A stretch of 12,540 nt of DNA, taken from Pseudomonadota bacterium. Lineage in GTDB: Bacteria; Desulfobacterota; Syntrophia; Syntrophales; JADFWA01. Below the pieces are notes generated by a model that saw only the letters and a program-made list of their open reading frames with translations, had not been told where the DNA came from and did no database searches. The translations under genes and the position numbers were made by a program. The stretch is from NCBI GenBank assembly GCA_015222855.1, contig JADFWA010000077.1, forward strand, positions 1 through 12,540. Reading direction: 5' to 3'. Shown piece by piece: positions 1,206 to 7,987 of the stretch. Within the stretch, counting starts at the first letter, position 1; each line of letters opens with the position of its first letter.

Positions 1206-1862
1206 ATGCTAGTGAAGACAATCGGTGTGCTTGATCTTCAGGGGGATGTTTCCGAACACCTTGATCACTTGGAGCGTCTGGGGATTGCCGGTGTGCGGGT
1301 GAAGGAGCCTGCAGACTTTGCTCATCTCGCGGGATTGATTATACCCGGCGGCGAAAGCACGTGCCTCTTCCGTTTGCTGAATATTTTCGGCATCAAGGAT
1401 GTTATTCTTCGTGAGTTTCAGCGTGGGCTGAAGCTGTGGGGGACGTGCGCGGGGGCAATTCTCCTTGCTAAAAATATTGTGGGTGAATCGCCCTGCCTTG
1501 GTCTTATCGATATTGAAATTGAGAGAAACGCCTTCGGGAATCAACTGGACAGCTTTGCGTGTGAGGCACTCATTCCCCGCGTAGCGCCGCAGCCGGTACC
1601 TCTCACTTTCATTCGCGCACCAAAAATTATTCGAGTGGGCATTGGCGTTGAAGTGTTGTTGCGGCAGGATGATTATATCGCTGCCGCGGAGAGTCCCGAC
1701 ATCCTGGTAACGATATTTCATCCGGAGCTTACGCCGTGTATTGCATTCCATCGCTATTTCGCGCTCAAGTGCGGTCTGAAACCACGCGATGACGCCGAAC
1801 ATTCCATAATCGATCCAACCTGGGACAGCAGAAGCTGGACCAGACACGCACAGGTCGCCTAA
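1206..1862 (+). CDS. pdxT: Pyridoxal 5'-phosphate synthase glutaminase subunit PdxT
   Basis: This class I glutamine amidotransferase subunit hydrolyses glutamine and channels ammonia to PdxS. The 218-aa protein shows LDLQGDVSEH near the N-terminus, the PGGEST motif at 47-52, the nucleophile Cys81 in WGTCAG, ERNAFGNQLDSF at 106-117, and the His172 and Glu174 of the triad in FHPELT. The last roughly 25 residues (RDDAEHS onward) go beyond the usual end of the family. Start choice is open. ATG at 1206 is only 3 nt after the GGGGGG run at 1197-1202. GTG at 1212 has better spacing and would give 216 aa. The gene is separated from pdxS by a terminator and a short repeat, so it may need its own promoter or read-through. 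Confidence 0.96.
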   Translation: MLVKTIGVLDLQGDVSEHLDHLERLGIAGVRVKEPADFAHLAGLIIPGGESTCLFRLLNIFGIKDVILREFQRGLKLWGTCAGAILLAKNIVGESPCLGLIDIEIERNAFGNQLDSFACEALIPRVAPQPVPLTFIRAPKIIRVGIGVEVLLRQDDYIAAAESPDILVTIFHPELTPCIAFHRYFALKCGLKPRDDAEHSIIDPTWDSRSWTRHAQVA

Positions 1863-1973
1863 GCCGAACCTCCTTGATTATTAAGGGAAATTTCATCATT
1901 ATTTGATATTTTCAGCTTGACCAACAGGGTCTTTTTCAGTATTGAAAACAGGTTTTATTTTGGAGGTAACACA

Positions 1974-3332
1974 ATGGCAGAGAAGGTCAATAAAGATCAT
2001 ATCTTTTACAGGAATCCGACAAAATACTACCCTACCGCCGAAAGGGGGGAGGGTATCTATATTTACGATTCGGAGGGAAAACAATATATTGATGGCTCCG
2101 GCGGAGCGGTTGTAGTTTCAATCGGCCATGGTGTTGAGGAGGTAAAAAAGGCGATGCTGGGGCAGGCAGGCAAAATCGCTTTTACCCATGGTTCCCAGTT
2201 TACAACCGAAGCCGCCATTGATCTGGCCGAAAAGCTCGTTAATATTTCACCGGAGGGTTTGGACAGGGTTTATTTTCTCTCAGGTGGTTCGGAGGCGGTT
2301 GAGACCGCCGTTAAAATGGCCCGTCAATACCAGGTGGATCGGGGTGCCCCTTCAAAATACAAGGTGATCTCCCGCTGGACAAGCTATCATGGAAATACAC
2401 TTGGAGCCTTGGCGCTCAGCGGACACACAGGACGAAGAAAGTATTATCAGCCGTTGATCCAGCATACCCCTCATATTGCGCCGGCTTATTGCTACCGGTG
2501 CTCCTTTGGGTCGGAACCGGGAAAATGTAATTTAGAGTGCGCTGAAGAGCTTGAGAAGGCCATTCTGTATGAGGGGCCAGAGTCAGTGTCCGCCTTTATG
2601 GCCGAGCCGGTAGTTGGTGCGACCGCCGGCGCGCTGGTTCCCCAAGACGGCTATTTTCAAAGAATTCGGGAGATATGTGACAAATACGATGTTCTGCTCA
2701 TTGTTGACGAGGTAATGACCGGTATCGGGAGGACGGGGAAAATTTTCGCCGTTGACCACTGGAATGTGGCGCCGGATATGCTTATCTGCGCCAAAGGCCT
2801 TGCCGGCGGCTATACACCCATATACTGCCTCCTGACAAAGGAGAAAATTTATCGAACCATAAAGGAGGGTAACGGGACATTTGTTCACGGTCACACCTAC
2901 AGCCAGAATCCTCTCTCCTCTGCCATCGCTTTGGCGGTACTCGTCTACATCGAAAAACATGACCTCGTGAACCGCTCCGCGAAAATGGGGGCATATCTGC
3001 TGGAAAAGTTGAAGGTCCTGGAAAGGCATCCGATTGTCGGAAATGTCCGTGGATTGGGGCTTTTCGCGGGACTGGAGTTTGTCAGGAATAAGGAAACGAA
3101 AGAGACCTTTGATCCCAAGCTGAAAGTGAATGTCTTGATCGGAAACCGCGTCTTTGAAAAGGGGTTGATAATCTATCCAGGTGGAGGAGGGGCCGATGGT
3201 GTTCATGGGGATCACATACTTGTTGCCCCGCCCTTCGTAATTACAGAGGAACAGATTGATCAGATCGTAAAAATCCTGGATGAATCCATCGCGGAGATAA
3301 CTGAAGAAAAGGGACTCGATGCAAGCGGTTAA
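1974..3332 (+). CDS. Class III PLP-dependent aminotransferase
   Basis: This 452-aa protein is a fold-type I, subgroup III transaminase (the acetylornithine / omega-amino acid family) that moves an amino group to a 2-oxo acid. Visible features are the cofactor phosphate loop SGGSEAVE (103-110), SYHGNT (137-142), Asp245 in LLIVDEV for the pyridine nitrogen, the Schiff-base Lys274 in ICAKGLAGGY, and HGHTYS with Thr308. A four-cysteine patch (Cys173, Cys176, Cys185, Cys189) follows the IAPAY segment. The start is ATG 1974, 7 nt after GGAGG (1962-1966). A longer in-frame reading from 1917 has no ribosome site and adds unconserved residues. The BKACE gene starts 32 bp downstream, so the likely product is a beta-keto acid, but the substrate cannot be read from the sequence. 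Alternatives are a beta-alanine, taurine or 4-aminobutyrate type transaminase. Confidence 0.9.
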   Translation: MAEKVNKDHIFYRNPTKYYPTAERGEGIYIYDSEGKQYIDGSGGAVVVSIGHGVEEVKKAMLGQAGKIAFTHGSQFTTEAAIDLAEKLVNISPEGLDRVYFLSGGSEAVETAVKMARQYQVDRGAPSKYKVISRWTSYHGNTLGALALSGHTGRRKYYQPLIQHTPHIAPAYCYRCSFGSEPGKCNLECAEELEKAILYEGPESVSAFMAEPVVGATAGALVPQDGYFQRIREICDKYDVLLIVDEVMTGIGRTGKIFAVDHWNVAPDMLICAKGLAGGYTPIYCLLTKEKIYRTIKEGNGTFVHGHTYSQNPLSSAIALAVLVYIEKHDLVNRSAKMGAYLLEKLKVLERHPIVGNVRGLGLFAGLEFVRNKETKETFDPKLKVNVLIGNRVFEKGLIIYPGGGGADGVHGDHILVAPPFVITEEQIDQIVKILDESIAEITEEKGLDASG

Positions 3333-4367: not shown

Positions 4368-4404
4368 TTTCCCCTCCCACCAGGGGAGGGGAAATTTGGT
4401 TTTT
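4368..4404 (+). terminator. Probable terminator after the aminotransferase-BKACE unit
   Basis: An 11-bp stem, TTTCCCCTCCC with GGGAGGGGAAA, encloses a 5-nt loop and is followed by TTTGGTTTTT on the + strand. It sits between convergent genes (BKACE + and the response regulator -). The T-rich tract favours + strand termination; on the - strand the stem is followed by purines. The tail is interrupted by GG, so its efficiency is uncertain. CCCCTCCC palindromes can also be dispersed repeats. Confidence 0.55.
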
Positions 4405-5743
4405 AATTTTGCTTTAATCCATACTTCTTTAGCTTATACCGCAGCATACGTTCGTTGATGCCGAGCATCTCGGCGGCTTTCGTCTGGTGGTGGCCGGTTT
4501 CTTCCATGGCCTCCCGGATCAGTTGACGTTCCAGGGCATCAAGTGATTCTTTCAGCTTTTTCCGGCTGCCTGTGGAATAGAAGGGAAGGTCTGCCATAGT
4601 TATCACCGTTCCTCTTGAGATAACCACCGCTCTTTCGATGATGTTCTCAAGCTCCCTGACGTTGCCTGGATAATCGTATTTCATAAGAAGGTCTCTGGCC
4701 TCACTGCTTATACCTTCAATATCTTTTCCGTTTTCGACGGCAAAGCGGTGCAGGAAGTGTTCAATCAGCGGAGGAATATCCTCTTTCCTTTCCACCAGTG
4801 GCGAAATGGACATAATGACCACGTTAATTCTGAAAAAGAGGTCTTCCCTGAAGCTGCCTTCCCTTACTCTTGTTTCCAGATCCTGGTTGGTTGCGCTGAT
4901 TATTCGAACATCTGAATGGATGGTTCGATTTCCCCCCAAACGTTGAAATTCATGTTCCTGGAGGAATCGGAGGAGTTTGACCTGAACGGGGAGTGACATT
5001 TCGCCAATCTCATCCAGAAAAATGGTTCCCCCGTCGGCCTCTTCGAATCGTCCTATTCTTCTTCCCGTTGCTCCCGTAAATGCACCCTTTTCATGGCCGA
5101 AAAGTTCGCTTTCGAGCAGGCTTTCAGGAAGCGCCCCGCAATTTACCACAATCATCGGCTTTTCCGAGCGGGGGCTTAGATTATGGATCAGTCTGGCAAT
5201 GAGTTCCTTGCCGGTGCCGCTTTCCCCCTGTATCAGGATAGTGGCACGGCTGGGAGCGACCCTCCCTGCCATATTGATCAGGTTTTCCATTTTGGGGCTT
5301 CCGTATATTATCCTGTCTGTTGTAACTCCTTTAACCCTCAACTCCTGTCGAAGGATTTCATTTTCCCTGATAAGCGTTTGCCGCTCTGAAATCCGGTCGA
5401 TTATAATATTCAGCTCATCCAGCTCTATGGGCTTGGTAACGTAATCCAGGGCACCGGCCTTCATGGCCTCGACCGCTGTTTCTAACGTTCCGTAAGCGGT
5501 CATCATCATAACGTCAATTTCCGGATTGATACTCTTTACCTTCTTAAGTACCTCCATCCCATTCATTTTAGGCATTTTATAATCGAGGAGCAACAGGTCA
5601 AAATGGCCTTCGAGAACTTGATTTATCGCGACATTCCCGTCTTCAGCTTCCGCAACGACATGCCCTTGTTTGGTAAGAAAATCCCGAAGCATTTCCCGTT
5701 GTGGTTGACCATCCTCGACAATAAGGATATGTAATTTATTCAT
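4403..5743 (-). CDS. Sigma-54-dependent response regulator (NtrC/AtoC class)
   Basis: This 446-aa cytoplasmic transcription activator is phosphorylated by its partner kinase and then remodels sigma-54 RNA polymerase. The receiver domain (about 1-120) has the acidic pair Glu10/Asp11, the phosphoacceptor Asp54, Thr82 and Lys104. The AAA+ domain (about 145-370) has Walker A GESGTGKE at 173-180, the sigma-54-contacting GAFTGA loop at 220-225, and a Walker B in GGTIFLDEIGEMS. A Fis-type helix-turn-helix ends the protein (TKAAEMLGINERMLRYKLKKYGL). The ATG at 5743 follows a GAGAGGA site on the minus strand. The histidine kinase gene lies upstream on the same strand, separated by the inserted GxxExxY cassette. 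No -24/-12 promoter was found in the window, so its target is unknown. Confidence 0.95.
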   Translation of the reverse strand: MNKLHILIVEDGQPQREMLRDFLTKQGHVVAEAEDGNVAINQVLEGHFDLLLLDYKMPKMNGMEVLKKVKSINPEIDVMMMTAYGTLETAVEAMKAGALDYVTKPIELDELNIIIDRISERQTLIRENEILRQELRVKGVTTDRIIYGSPKMENLINMAGRVAPSRATILIQGESGTGKELIARLIHNLSPRSEKPMIVVNCGALPESLLESELFGHEKGAFTGATGRRIGRFEEADGGTIFLDEIGEMSLPVQVKLLRFLQEHEFQRLGGNRTIHSDVRIISATNQDLETRVREGSFREDLFFRINVVIMSISPLVERKEDIPPLIEHFLHRFAVENGKDIEGISSEARDLLMKYDYPGNVRELENIIERAVVISRGTVITMADLPFYSTGSRKKLKESLDALERQLIREAMEETGHHQTKAAEMLGINERMLRYKLKKYGLKQN

Positions 5744-5770
5744 GGTCGAAATATCCTCTCTCGTAATAGT

Positions 5771-5798
5771 TCACCGCAAAGGCGCAAAGAGCGCAGAG
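5771..5798 (-). repeat. Left terminal repeat of the GxxExxY cassette
   Basis: Read on the minus strand it is CTCTGCGCT, CTTTGCGCC and TTTGCGGTGA. It is inverted relative to 6196-6223. The next bases outward, TCGTAATAG (5761-5769), are also shared with the relic at 7988-7996, so the true element edge may lie further out. Confidence 0.7.
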
Positions 5799-5800
5799 TT

Positions 5801-6184
5801 TTAAAGACCATTCACAATTCTCTTTATTCCATTTTTCAGAATTGGGACATTAAAATTAATCAATATTCCTAATTTTATATCTGATAACTTTAAATACGTT
5901 AGGAGTTGTGCTTCATGAATTGGTTCAATCTTGTTAGCCGCCTTTAATTCCAAGATTACCAGTCCTCCAACAACTATATCCAGTCGATATCCACAATCCA
6001 GTTTTACTCCTTTATAAGACACCGGAATAGGTTTTTGCCGTTCAAAAGTAAGACCACGAATAGCCAGTTCTCGACAAAGACACTCTTCGTAGGCTGATTC
6101 CAACAATCCTGGTCCCAGATTGCGATGTACCTCAATTGCTGCCCCAATGATTTCCTTTGAGAGCTTATTTTCCTCTTTTATCAC
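5801..6184 (-). CDS. GxxExxY-family protein (PD-(D/E)xK nuclease fold)
   Basis: The 127-aa protein carries the family signature GLLESAY (Gly26, Glu29, Tyr32) in a helix preceded by GAAIEVHRNLGPG. It also shows a nuclease-superfamily core: Asp69 in YRLDIVV, then Glu79-Leu80-Lys81 in LELKA, and Gln93 to Tyr97 (QLLTY), like the QxxxY motif of RecB/Cas4-type nucleases. The family has no established function; DNA cleavage or DNA binding is an inference. The start chosen is GTG at 6184, which gives the usual family length. A longer reading to 6331 would translate the repeat and overlap the kinase gene in another frame. The ribosome site is weak (AAAGA). The gene is A+T-richer than its neighbours and bounded by inverted repeats, suggesting acquisition. 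Confidence 0.85.
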   Translation of the reverse strand: MIKEENKLSKEIIGAAIEVHRNLGPGLLESAYEECLCRELAIRGLTFERQKPIPVSYKGVKLDCGYRLDIVVGGLVILELKAANKIEPIHEAQLLTYLKLSDIKLGILINFNVPILKNGIKRIVNGL

Positions 6185-6195
6185 TTTAGATCTTT

Positions 6196-6223
6196 CTTTG
6201 CGTCCTTTGCGTCTTTGCGGTAA
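6196..6223 (+). repeat. Right terminal repeat of the GxxExxY cassette
   Basis: It reads CTTTGCGTC, CTTTGCGTC and TTTGCGGTAA on the + strand: two identical 9-bp units plus a terminal unit. It is the inverted partner of 5771-5798, sharing the GCG period and the GCGGTRA end. It lies 7 bp from the kinase stop codon. Confidence 0.7.
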
Positions 6224-6230
6224 GGTGAGC

Positions 6231-7970
6231 TTATCCCGCTTTTTCTGCCGGCAGCAGGATTTCAAAGGTTGTTCCTGAACCCTGCTTGCTCTGCACGTGA
6301 ATTTCCCCCCTGTGTCCCCGTATGATTTCATGGGCTATGGGAAGGCCCAGACCCAATCCTTTCTCTTTTGTTGTATACTCCGGGTTGAAGATACGATCCA
6401 CCTCTTCGGGTGTTAATCCGGAACCCGTATCTGAAATTTTAATACTCACCTTATTCTTTCCGTCCGGTTCAACAGAAATCGTTATGGTTCCCCCGTCGGT
6501 AATCGATTCCATTCCATTTTTTAAAATATTGTAGATGGCCTGTTCAAATTTGTCCACATCCATGGAAACCATGGCATCGTTACCATTCCAGATAGTTTTT
6601 ATCGTGATTCCTTTGGATTTGACCTCCTCTTCTATAAGGTCGACAATCTTTTGCAGGACATCTACAACAGAGTGGTTGTGAAATTCCAGCCGGCGACTTC
6701 TGAAGAAGGTGGCAAACTCTTCGATGATACCGTTCAAACGTCTGATCTCATCACGAATGATTCTTGTGATATGAGAAAATTCCTTCTTCTTTTCTTCGCC
6801 TTCGGGTGAGTATTCCAGTTGGAGTCTCTGGCTGGCCATGCTGATAGCATTCAGAGGGTTGCGGATTTCATGGGCCACGCCGGCGGCAAGTTGGCCGAGG
6901 GCGGAAAGCTTTTCAGCTCGCTGGAGCCGTTTTTCCATTTCCTCCATTCTTGTTAGGTGTCTGTTCTGATTCCAGTAAAGCGCCCACATAGACACGATAC
7001 CGATCAGCACAATGAATATCATGGAAAGGAGCATGCGCTCCCTGTTTTTTTTAAGGATTTCGTCGGCCTTATCCCTTTTAAGACCAATCCGCGCATATCC
7101 GGCCACCATCGTATCCAGGTGAAACGGAGTAAGTATCTCGAGAACTTTTCCACCGTCAAACTGGATATCACGACTCGTCATCTTCAATTTTCCTGACATG
7201 ATGTTTTGAACAAGCGCGTCCGTTTCCGTGAATTTTCGTGGGATTTCACCCGCCTGGCCCAGTATATTCCCATGCTGATCTATAACCATCAGATAGGCCA
7301 GACCCTGCCCCCATCCAACTTCCTCGATGACTTTATTGACGGTAATCCTGGTGCTCCAGTATTTTGTTCTTTTATCATCCAGGGCGATAATGATGGTACC
7401 GCTCTTATCCTTCCGGGGGAAGGTAATGTAACTGATTTCATCAAGCTTTCCGAATATGTTCAATAGATATGCAATAATTTCCTTGTTTGTGGCTATAATT
7501 GTTGGAGCCGTCCATGAACCGACATCATGAAGAAATTTTTTGCTCTGAAAAATGACCTTCCCCCGTTTATTGAGAAAGGTGATGAGCGAGATGTTTTCAC
7601 GGTCGGCTACTTCTCGTAGCTCTTTTTTACTTAGATGCTCCGTCTTCCATTTTGTATCAATTTCATGTGCCAGATCCACAAGGGCCTTTACAAGGGCTTC
7701 CTGGTACGAAAGCACTTTGCCGGTGAGCTTGCCGCCCCCTTCAGGTTCTTTAAGGGCCTGGCGCAGATAATTTATATTTTCCTGTGCGACATTCTCGACG
7801 GTCGTAATGATATCGAGCCCCCTGTTTTCCATAAAACCGACCAGTGTCTTATCAAGTCTTCCCAACTCCATGATACCCATAACCACGATGAGGGAGATAA
7901 AAACAATTACAACGAGAGATACGGTGAGGGGCATAATATATTTTGATGTTGTTTTCCTGTTTAGATCCAC
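6231..7970 (-). CDS. Membrane sensor histidine kinase
   Basis: This 579-aa inner-membrane kinase is the likely partner of the downstream response regulator. It has a short cytoplasmic N-terminus, TM1 at about 13-35, and an extracytoplasmic sensor domain of about 275 residues (Cache/PAS-like strands such as YLMVIDQHGNILGQ at 226-239). TM2 is at about 313-333, followed by a coiled linker. The HisKA domain has the phosphoacceptor His367 in LAAGVAHEIRNPLNA. The HATPase domain has the N box (Asn485), G1 DTGSGL (514-519) and G2 GLGLGL (538-543). The start is GTG at 7970, about 10 nt after an AGGA site; the next in-frame ATG (residue 13) would cut into TM1. A strong promoter-like sequence lies upstream. 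The ligand is not deducible. Confidence 0.94.
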   Translation of the reverse strand: MDLNRKTTSKYIMPLTVSLVVIVFISLIVVMGIMELGRLDKTLVGFMENRGLDIITTVENVAQENINYLRQALKEPEGGGKLTGKVLSYQEALVKALVDLAHEIDTKWKTEHLSKKELREVADRENISLITFLNKRGKVIFQSKKFLHDVGSWTAPTIIATNKEIIAYLLNIFGKLDEISYITFPRKDKSGTIIIALDDKRTKYWSTRITVNKVIEEVGWGQGLAYLMVIDQHGNILGQAGEIPRKFTETDALVQNIMSGKLKMTSRDIQFDGGKVLEILTPFHLDTMVAGYARIGLKRDKADEILKKNRERMLLSMIFIVLIGIVSMWALYWNQNRHLTRMEEMEKRLQRAEKLSALGQLAAGVAHEIRNPLNAISMASQRLQLEYSPEGEEKKKEFSHITRIIRDEIRRLNGIIEEFATFFRSRRLEFHNHSVVDVLQKIVDLIEEEVKSKGITIKTIWNGNDAMVSMDVDKFEQAIYNILKNGMESITDGGTITISVEPDGKNKVSIKISDTGSGLTPEEVDRIFNPEYTTKEKGLGLGLPIAHEIIRGHRGEIHVQSKQGSGTTFEILLPAEKAG

Positions 7971-7987
7971 AGTTTTTTAATCCTGTT

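Follow-up and report, generated by a model that had tools for sequence, protein, structure and literature searches.

A GxxExxY gene between inverted heptamer arms: a candidate mobile cassette in a kinase–regulator operon

Why are a sensor histidine kinase and its response regulator, expected to be direct neighbours, separated by one small gene set between inverted repeats? The question is raised by a stretch of 12,540 nucleotides from a Pseudomonadota bacterium (GTDB: Desulfobacterota, Syntrophales; contig JADFWA010000077.1), here called the window, in which a gene of the GxxExxY family lies between the two partners. A preliminary description of this DNA had taken gene and repeats as a self-contained and perhaps mobile unit. 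We conclude that the window feature very probably belongs to a family of mobile cassettes. The best explanation as a whole is that of mobile single-gene cassettes, with arms as putative nuclease sites and hairpins as derivatives, to which we assign a probability of about 0.55.

The cassette and its empty site

In G001, the single additional genome of this genus that was searched, kinase and regulator are adjacent. By BLAST against the window, positions 4402-5759 and 6241-7977 correspond to 135-1492 and 1502-3229 of the G001 DNA (L024), and 481 window bases are replaced by 9. The empty site carries no arm. The cassette is absent from the orthologous site and is therefore not always fixed there; most likely it entered the kinase–regulator operon once the lineage had separated from its sister species. 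A deletion in G001 would need near-exact removal of the cassette with no arm left behind.

Kinase, GxxExxY gene and regulator lie on one strand, and the open reading frame (ORF) and domain calls bear out that the two partners are parted by a single gene. The GTG start of this gene is our choice; the ORF as listed, 5801-6331, crosses the arm into the kinase. Inverted repeats are present at both edges as first described, with a length in the ungapped test of 26 nt rather than 28 and a complementarity of 85%. Each arm consists of three CGCARAG heptamers separated by spacers of 1 and 2 nt. Heptamers on the regulator side start at 5775, 5783 and 5792, which gives steps of 8 and then 9 in place of the strict 9-bp period proposed earlier, and the kinase-side arm, made of three CGCAAAG, mirrors these spacers. 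In 1000 dinucleotide shuffles of the flanks the score never exceeded 14, compared with 16 for the arms themselves. The kinase-side arm sits immediately upstream of the GxxExxY start codon, and its inner heptamers may provide a purine-rich ribosome-binding sequence.

The encoded protein matches TIGR04256 (GxxExxY) with 156.5 bits (cut-off 35) and PF13366 (PDDEXK_3) with 149.4 bits (cut-off 22). No further Pfam family is reported at E ≤ 0.001, and so no HUH/Y1 transposase. The protein has the D...ExK core on a restriction-endonuclease-like fold that defines the PD-(D/E)XK superfamily. The Asp...Glu-x-Lys and QxxxY residues picked out in the preliminary description are kept in 44 relatives, D69, K81 and Y97 without exception and E79 and Q93 in at least 90%. 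Among the top chains listed by Foldseek, the fold is closest to Cas4/RecB, lambda-type exonucleases and Hjc, and families outside these chains may still resemble it. The PDB holds no sequence relative at E ≤ 1. The GxxExxY protein is under strong purifying selection. Coordinates are collected in Table 1.

Table 1. Features of the window locus, in window positions.
Feature	Position	Strand	Detail	Basis
Sensor histidine kinase (HisKA, HATPase_c), upstream neighbour	6231-7970	minus	G001 orthologue 80% identical	domain search
Kinase-side inverted arm	6196-6221		CTTTGCG at 6196-6202, 6205-6211, 6213-6219	read directly
GxxExxY gene, GTG start at 6184	5801-6184	minus	127 codons + stop	ORF and profile matches
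Regulator-side inverted arm	5773-5798		CGCAAAG 5775-5781, CGCAAAG 5783-5789, CGCAGAG 5792-5798	read directly
Sigma-54-dependent response regulator, downstream neighbour	4403-5743	minus		domain search
Stretch missing from sister species	5760-6240		outer limits of insertion	BLAST vs L024

Arms, words and gene-less hairpins

Four GxxExxY genes were found in the window's genome, and all stand beside arms of repeated short words; for L004, whose contig ends just past the gene, one side is visible. The second copy of this genome (L002, 1501-1905) has lost the usual C-terminus after LLI, which looks like a frameshift. Across 183 unique GxxExxY loci, strong inverted arms (score at least 16) are found at 110, and 131 score at least 14. 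None of the 20 loci of a kinase control (G000 and G001) has arms scoring at least 16. The arm test with this control used 12 of 30 GxxExxY, 27 of 30 four-helix and 20 of 30 kinase loci, with fragments, contig-end copies and the window's kinase left out. In a set of 80 relatives from named genomes, the best among 570 confirmed ones, the inverted match of the 300-bp flanks scores at least 16 in 49, compared with 0.25% of 400 dinucleotide shuffles and 3.4% of mismatched locus pairs; the latter figure arises because arm words recur between loci. Inverted arms are thus frequent at GxxExxY genes elsewhere, and together with the empty site in G001 this means that neither of the two outcomes named in the preliminary description as contradicting it, a gene always fixed at this locus or relatives lacking flanking repeats, was found. 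The best word step over 107 armed loci is 9 in 47, 8 in 36, 10 in 20 and another value in 4.

GxxExxY genes occur in 58 of 158 sampled genomes of the phylum and are present in many other phyla. Two archaeal loci are within the 80 relatives, one armed (L173, score 19) and one not (L110, 8.5). Among plasmids 8 of 72,556 records matched and among phages 0 of 50,697, and one relative was found among 70 pattern-matching stretches of viral contigs. One of the two viral contigs L413 and L414 bears an armed GxxExxY gene, and the other has several gene-less hairpins between genes, among genes read as phage head-tail. In L286 (G209:C3:168900-173000) a row of three GxxExxY genes is found, every one of them flanked by CACGAAA arms of its own.

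Arm words vary from locus to locus and agree within each; they include CGCAGAG, CACGGAG, CACGAAA, CGCAGAT, CACGGAT, ACAGGAT, TCAGGAA and CACCAAG. Arm similarity climbs with protein identity (Mantel r 0.39, 0 of 500 permutations). At 70-90% protein identity, 89% of 27 pairs share arms (score at least 14), and at 35-40% identity about 1% of 1216 pairs do. Inheritance of gene and arms together suffices to account for this covariation; direct recognition of the arm words by the protein is an inference.

The same words are also found away from any such gene. The triple CGCARAG-CGCARAG-CGCARAG is present in 33 of the 158 genomes, 29 of which also hold the gene (p 1e-11; this value treats related genomes as independent and lets the arms of the gene itself count towards the pattern). 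Read backwards, the control pattern is found in two of 158 genomes, once in G178 and 16 times in G201. Triple-word sites greatly outnumber genes, as in G181 with 57 sites and 8 gene matches; in the window's genome 13 of 15 such sites are away from any GxxExxY gene. Further sites beyond the sampled genes were found in 10 of 11 genomes whose gene carries CGC arms and in 16 of 37 whose arms are of another kind (p 0.006; sites near sampled genes were removed, and gene sampling is incomplete). The fetched stretches contain many intergenic hairpins of about 65-150 bp without a gene, in both arm orders. Orthologous sites in the sister species have a different hairpin in some cases and none in others. 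Two sites, occupied in the window's genome by a GxxExxY cassette (L002) and by a hairpin without a gene (L005), hold a different hairpin in the sister species (L205, L203) and are possible insertion hot spots.

GTAAC tips and the means of movement

The family unit would be an inverted arm of about three spaced heptamers, a GxxExxY gene and a second inverted arm. The arms would most likely be DNA sites for the encoded Cas4/RecB-like nuclease, and hairpins with the same words and no gene would be dispersed non-autonomous derivatives, as repetitive extragenic palindromic (REP) elements are to RAYT proteins. That the nuclease acts on the arms has nearly an even chance; such action would spread the cassette. 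In some lineages the cassette lies within elements tipped by GTAAC, whose 8-bp target duplication points to staggered-cut transposition there.

In G030, near-identical GxxExxY copies, one of them with an in-frame stop, occupy several unrelated sites and break the assembly. The copies end in GTAACTGTTCAG... and ...CTGAATAGT(T/C)AC. Contig ends pair through the 8-bp repeats TATAATTT and AAAAACTT, a choice among five left and four right contig ends, and an internally deleted copy within one contig has GCCTTAAC on either side. Complete gene-bearing tipped copies on single contigs have 8 of 8 bases duplicated in L316 (G113), 7 of 8 in L056 (G002) and 3 of 8 in L291 (G107). In all, tipped GxxExxY copies were found in four genomes of the phylum, with an 8-bp duplication in three (G030, G113, G002). 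The mobility inferred in the preliminary description is thereby supported in related genomes; its further suggestion that the nuclease is the mobility or homing enzyme found no support. Site A of G030 (TTCGGAAA, empty in G014) was not counted, as the middle of the insertion between its 8-bp repeats is unassembled: on the left, the contig runs into a GxxExxY copy that has an in-frame stop, and on the right the contig starts inside a different, gene-less element. A short sequence, TGTCATTTCGNGCAAAGCGAGAAATCC, adjoins site A (L190 and L328); similar sequences occur as dispersed repeats.

A family of miniature inverted-repeat transposable elements (MITEs) with tips GTAACTNNTCAG and an 8-bp target duplication was seen in the window's own genome (L369), in G030 and G014 (L372-L392) and in G181 (L407, L409, L412, where the 8-bp repeats were read by eye). 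In a set of 26 tipped elements of 105-244 bp (20 from G030, 5 from G014, 1 from the window's genome; L388 at a contig edge and identical copies dropped), at least 7 of 8 bases are duplicated in 13 (null 0/2000). L369 and L372 entered the set after 7/8 had been seen, and L347 (2/8) was left out; counting L347 as well gives the fair figure of 13 of 27, and dropping all three leaves 11 of 24. The duplication is exactly 8 bp long, with a mean identity of 0.67 at this length and at most 0.32 at others.

Several results weigh against the explanation as a whole. The polarity of the window insertion is judged from two species, and around the inverted arms of the window copy no target duplication is seen. 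A score below 16 is found at 73 of the 183 loci, and the coupling of word and protein could result simply from gene and arms descending together. PD-(D/E)XK enzymes are not known to perform strand transfer unaided. Target duplications are clear only with GTAAC tips: at ordinary arms, direct repeats of at least 8 are found in 5 of 107 loci compared with 2.6% of mismatched pairs. Both tips (at most 1 mismatch) occur in 3 of 172 gene loci (0 of 860 shuffles), a rarity that makes the tip either a shell confined to certain lineages around a more widespread cassette or a feature decayed elsewhere. The GTAAC tip itself is found at 381 sites in four genomes (28 reversed), mostly away from the gene: 194 in G030, 64 in G014, 104 in the window's genome and 19 in G001, with 9, 5, 10 and 4 for the reversed control. 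G014 has its 64 sites and no GxxExxY gene, and tipped elements carry either GxxExxY-type or 7-bp-type arms. The abundance of tips, mostly geneless and shared between arm types, suits a separate transposase.

Target duplications at ordinary arms were also considered at lower thresholds and set aside as a mere weak excess over mismatched pairs (at least 6 in 39 of 107 compared with 26.5%; at least 7 in 13 of 107 compared with 8.1%).

These tips are the strength of the main rival, which we regard as possible though short of probable: gene and arms would be passengers in a MITE, cargo that a conventional DDE transposase (IS66-like tips) mobilises in trans, and GxxExxY would be uninvolved. Tips and 8-bp duplications are found on gene-bearing and gene-less elements alike, including the many tips of a genome without the gene and those enclosing 7-bp-step arms. 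IS66 members duplicate 8 bp. They also end in GTAA (PMC12888890). However, an IS66 transposase is present in 7 of 20 genomes searched, and we rejected IS66 as general mover on this count. G030, with its recent copies, yields one broken 28-bit fragment with two stops; the assemblies are drafts, so a missing transposase is no proof. No consistent transposase for cassettes or tipped elements was found among the 20 genomes. Furthermore, 164 of 172 gene loci have neither tip, the window copy shows a loose resemblance to GTAAC and no clear tip, and a passenger role leaves the strong selection on the protein unexplained. A 455-aa ORF beside a tip in G030 C40 was set aside as autonomous partner; it was read as a membrane transporter without a family search.

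A homing-like conversion, in which the nuclease would cut at gene-less hairpins or cruciforms, repair would proceed from a gene-bearing copy and recombination would keep the arms alike, is unlikely. The fold near Cas4, lambda-type exonucleases and Hjc would suit it, as would dispersed same-word hairpins, the presence of other hairpins at some orthologous sites and the few target duplications at most armed loci. Against it, no arm is present at the empty site in G001, and the G030 copies at unrelated sites, with 8-bp duplications where ends pair, argue for transposition rather than homing.

Less likely again is an element acting at the RNA level, whose arms would form a stem in the operon transcript and be processed as RNase III does for the intervening sequence (IVS) of 23S rRNA, making insertion neutral. 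The three genes on one strand agree with such a role, and a precedent is described in PMC4990558, where a Coxiella 23S IVS with a 28-bp stem is cleaved by RNase III in vitro. Hairpins without a gene, which occur in either arm order and also in viral contigs, speak against it. An RNA stem as arm function was rejected, as the mismatches show no wobble bias (57/57 at scores of at least 16, 62/65 at 14, 42/35 at 20). Finally, a chance or ordinary terminator-like palindrome around a fixed gene has a negligible probability: short palindromes are common between genes, but 0 of 1000 shuffles, the empty site and 110 of 183 armed loci oppose it.

Known systems and a parallel family

The architecture of the mobile GxxExxY cassettes resembles that of REPtrons and MITEs. 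In REPtrons (REP with RAYT/TnpA-REP), too, one gene lies between palindromic repeats and many gene-less palindromes are found in the same genome. Unlike REPtrons, the GxxExxY cassette encodes a PD-(D/E)XK protein and not a HUH nuclease, and its arms are spaced heptamers whose word varies by locus. In REPtrons a GTAG tetranucleotide stands beside the palindrome (PMC8266576); next to the window arms (5761-5805 and 6181-6245, read directly) it is absent on both strands. With MITEs and IS66-type ends some GxxExxY relatives share GTAA-type tips and the 8-bp target duplication, whereas the cassettes carry a conserved nuclease gene, the tip is missing from most gene loci and the IS66 transposase is inconsistent. 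Fold and D...ExK...QxxxY residues are those of Cas4, RecB and lambda exonuclease; in contrast, the window protein is stand-alone, 127 aa long and placed inside inverted arms.

A third likeness concerns four-helix-bundle genes (TIGR02436), presumably the same four-helix/S23 protein that is named PF05635. In the same relatives, these genes have inverted arms scoring at least 16 in 14 of 27 loci (L079-L104, L108), with tandem words at a 7-bp step (lag-7 identity 0.72, next 0.43). According to PMC4990558, the Coxiella 23S IVS encodes a protein of the four-helix-bundle kind and has, besides its inverted stem, heptamer repeats GACAGAT; the same paper calls the origin of such sequences unclear. In both systems, inverted ends containing heptamer repeats enclose one small gene; the 7-bp arms of the four-helix-bundle genes suggest that 23S intervening sequences are members of a family parallel to the GxxExxY cassettes. 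The proteins are unrelated, however, the step is 7 bp, and the published sequences lie within 23S rRNA; the window cassette, which encodes GxxExxY and is flanked by a protein gene on either side, is not a 23S IVS.

Going further, the cassettes could represent a large and undescribed class of prokaryotic transposable element, in which a PD-(D/E)XK nuclease of ~125 residues would read the heptamer arms, move or copy its own gene and scatter hairpins, with the four-helix (IVS) proteins as a second class that would explain the origin of the 23S IVS. We offer this proposal tentatively and consider it doubtful as a whole. No description of GxxExxY cassettes was found in titles and abstracts, a coverage that leaves out most subscription journals, and the arm repeat strings gave no literature match. 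One paper mentions GxxExxY in passing.

Cassettes and gene-less arms are found across many bacteria and in at least one archaeon; they look like widespread, poorly recognised mobile DNA. The visible cassette structure gives the GxxExxY family a testable role, that of a nuclease with cognate heptamer arms, and the words changing together with the proteins form a natural data set on how a nuclease chooses its DNA. The 7-bp arms of the four-helix-bundle genes, in turn, give a concrete starting point for tracing where 23S intervening sequences come from.
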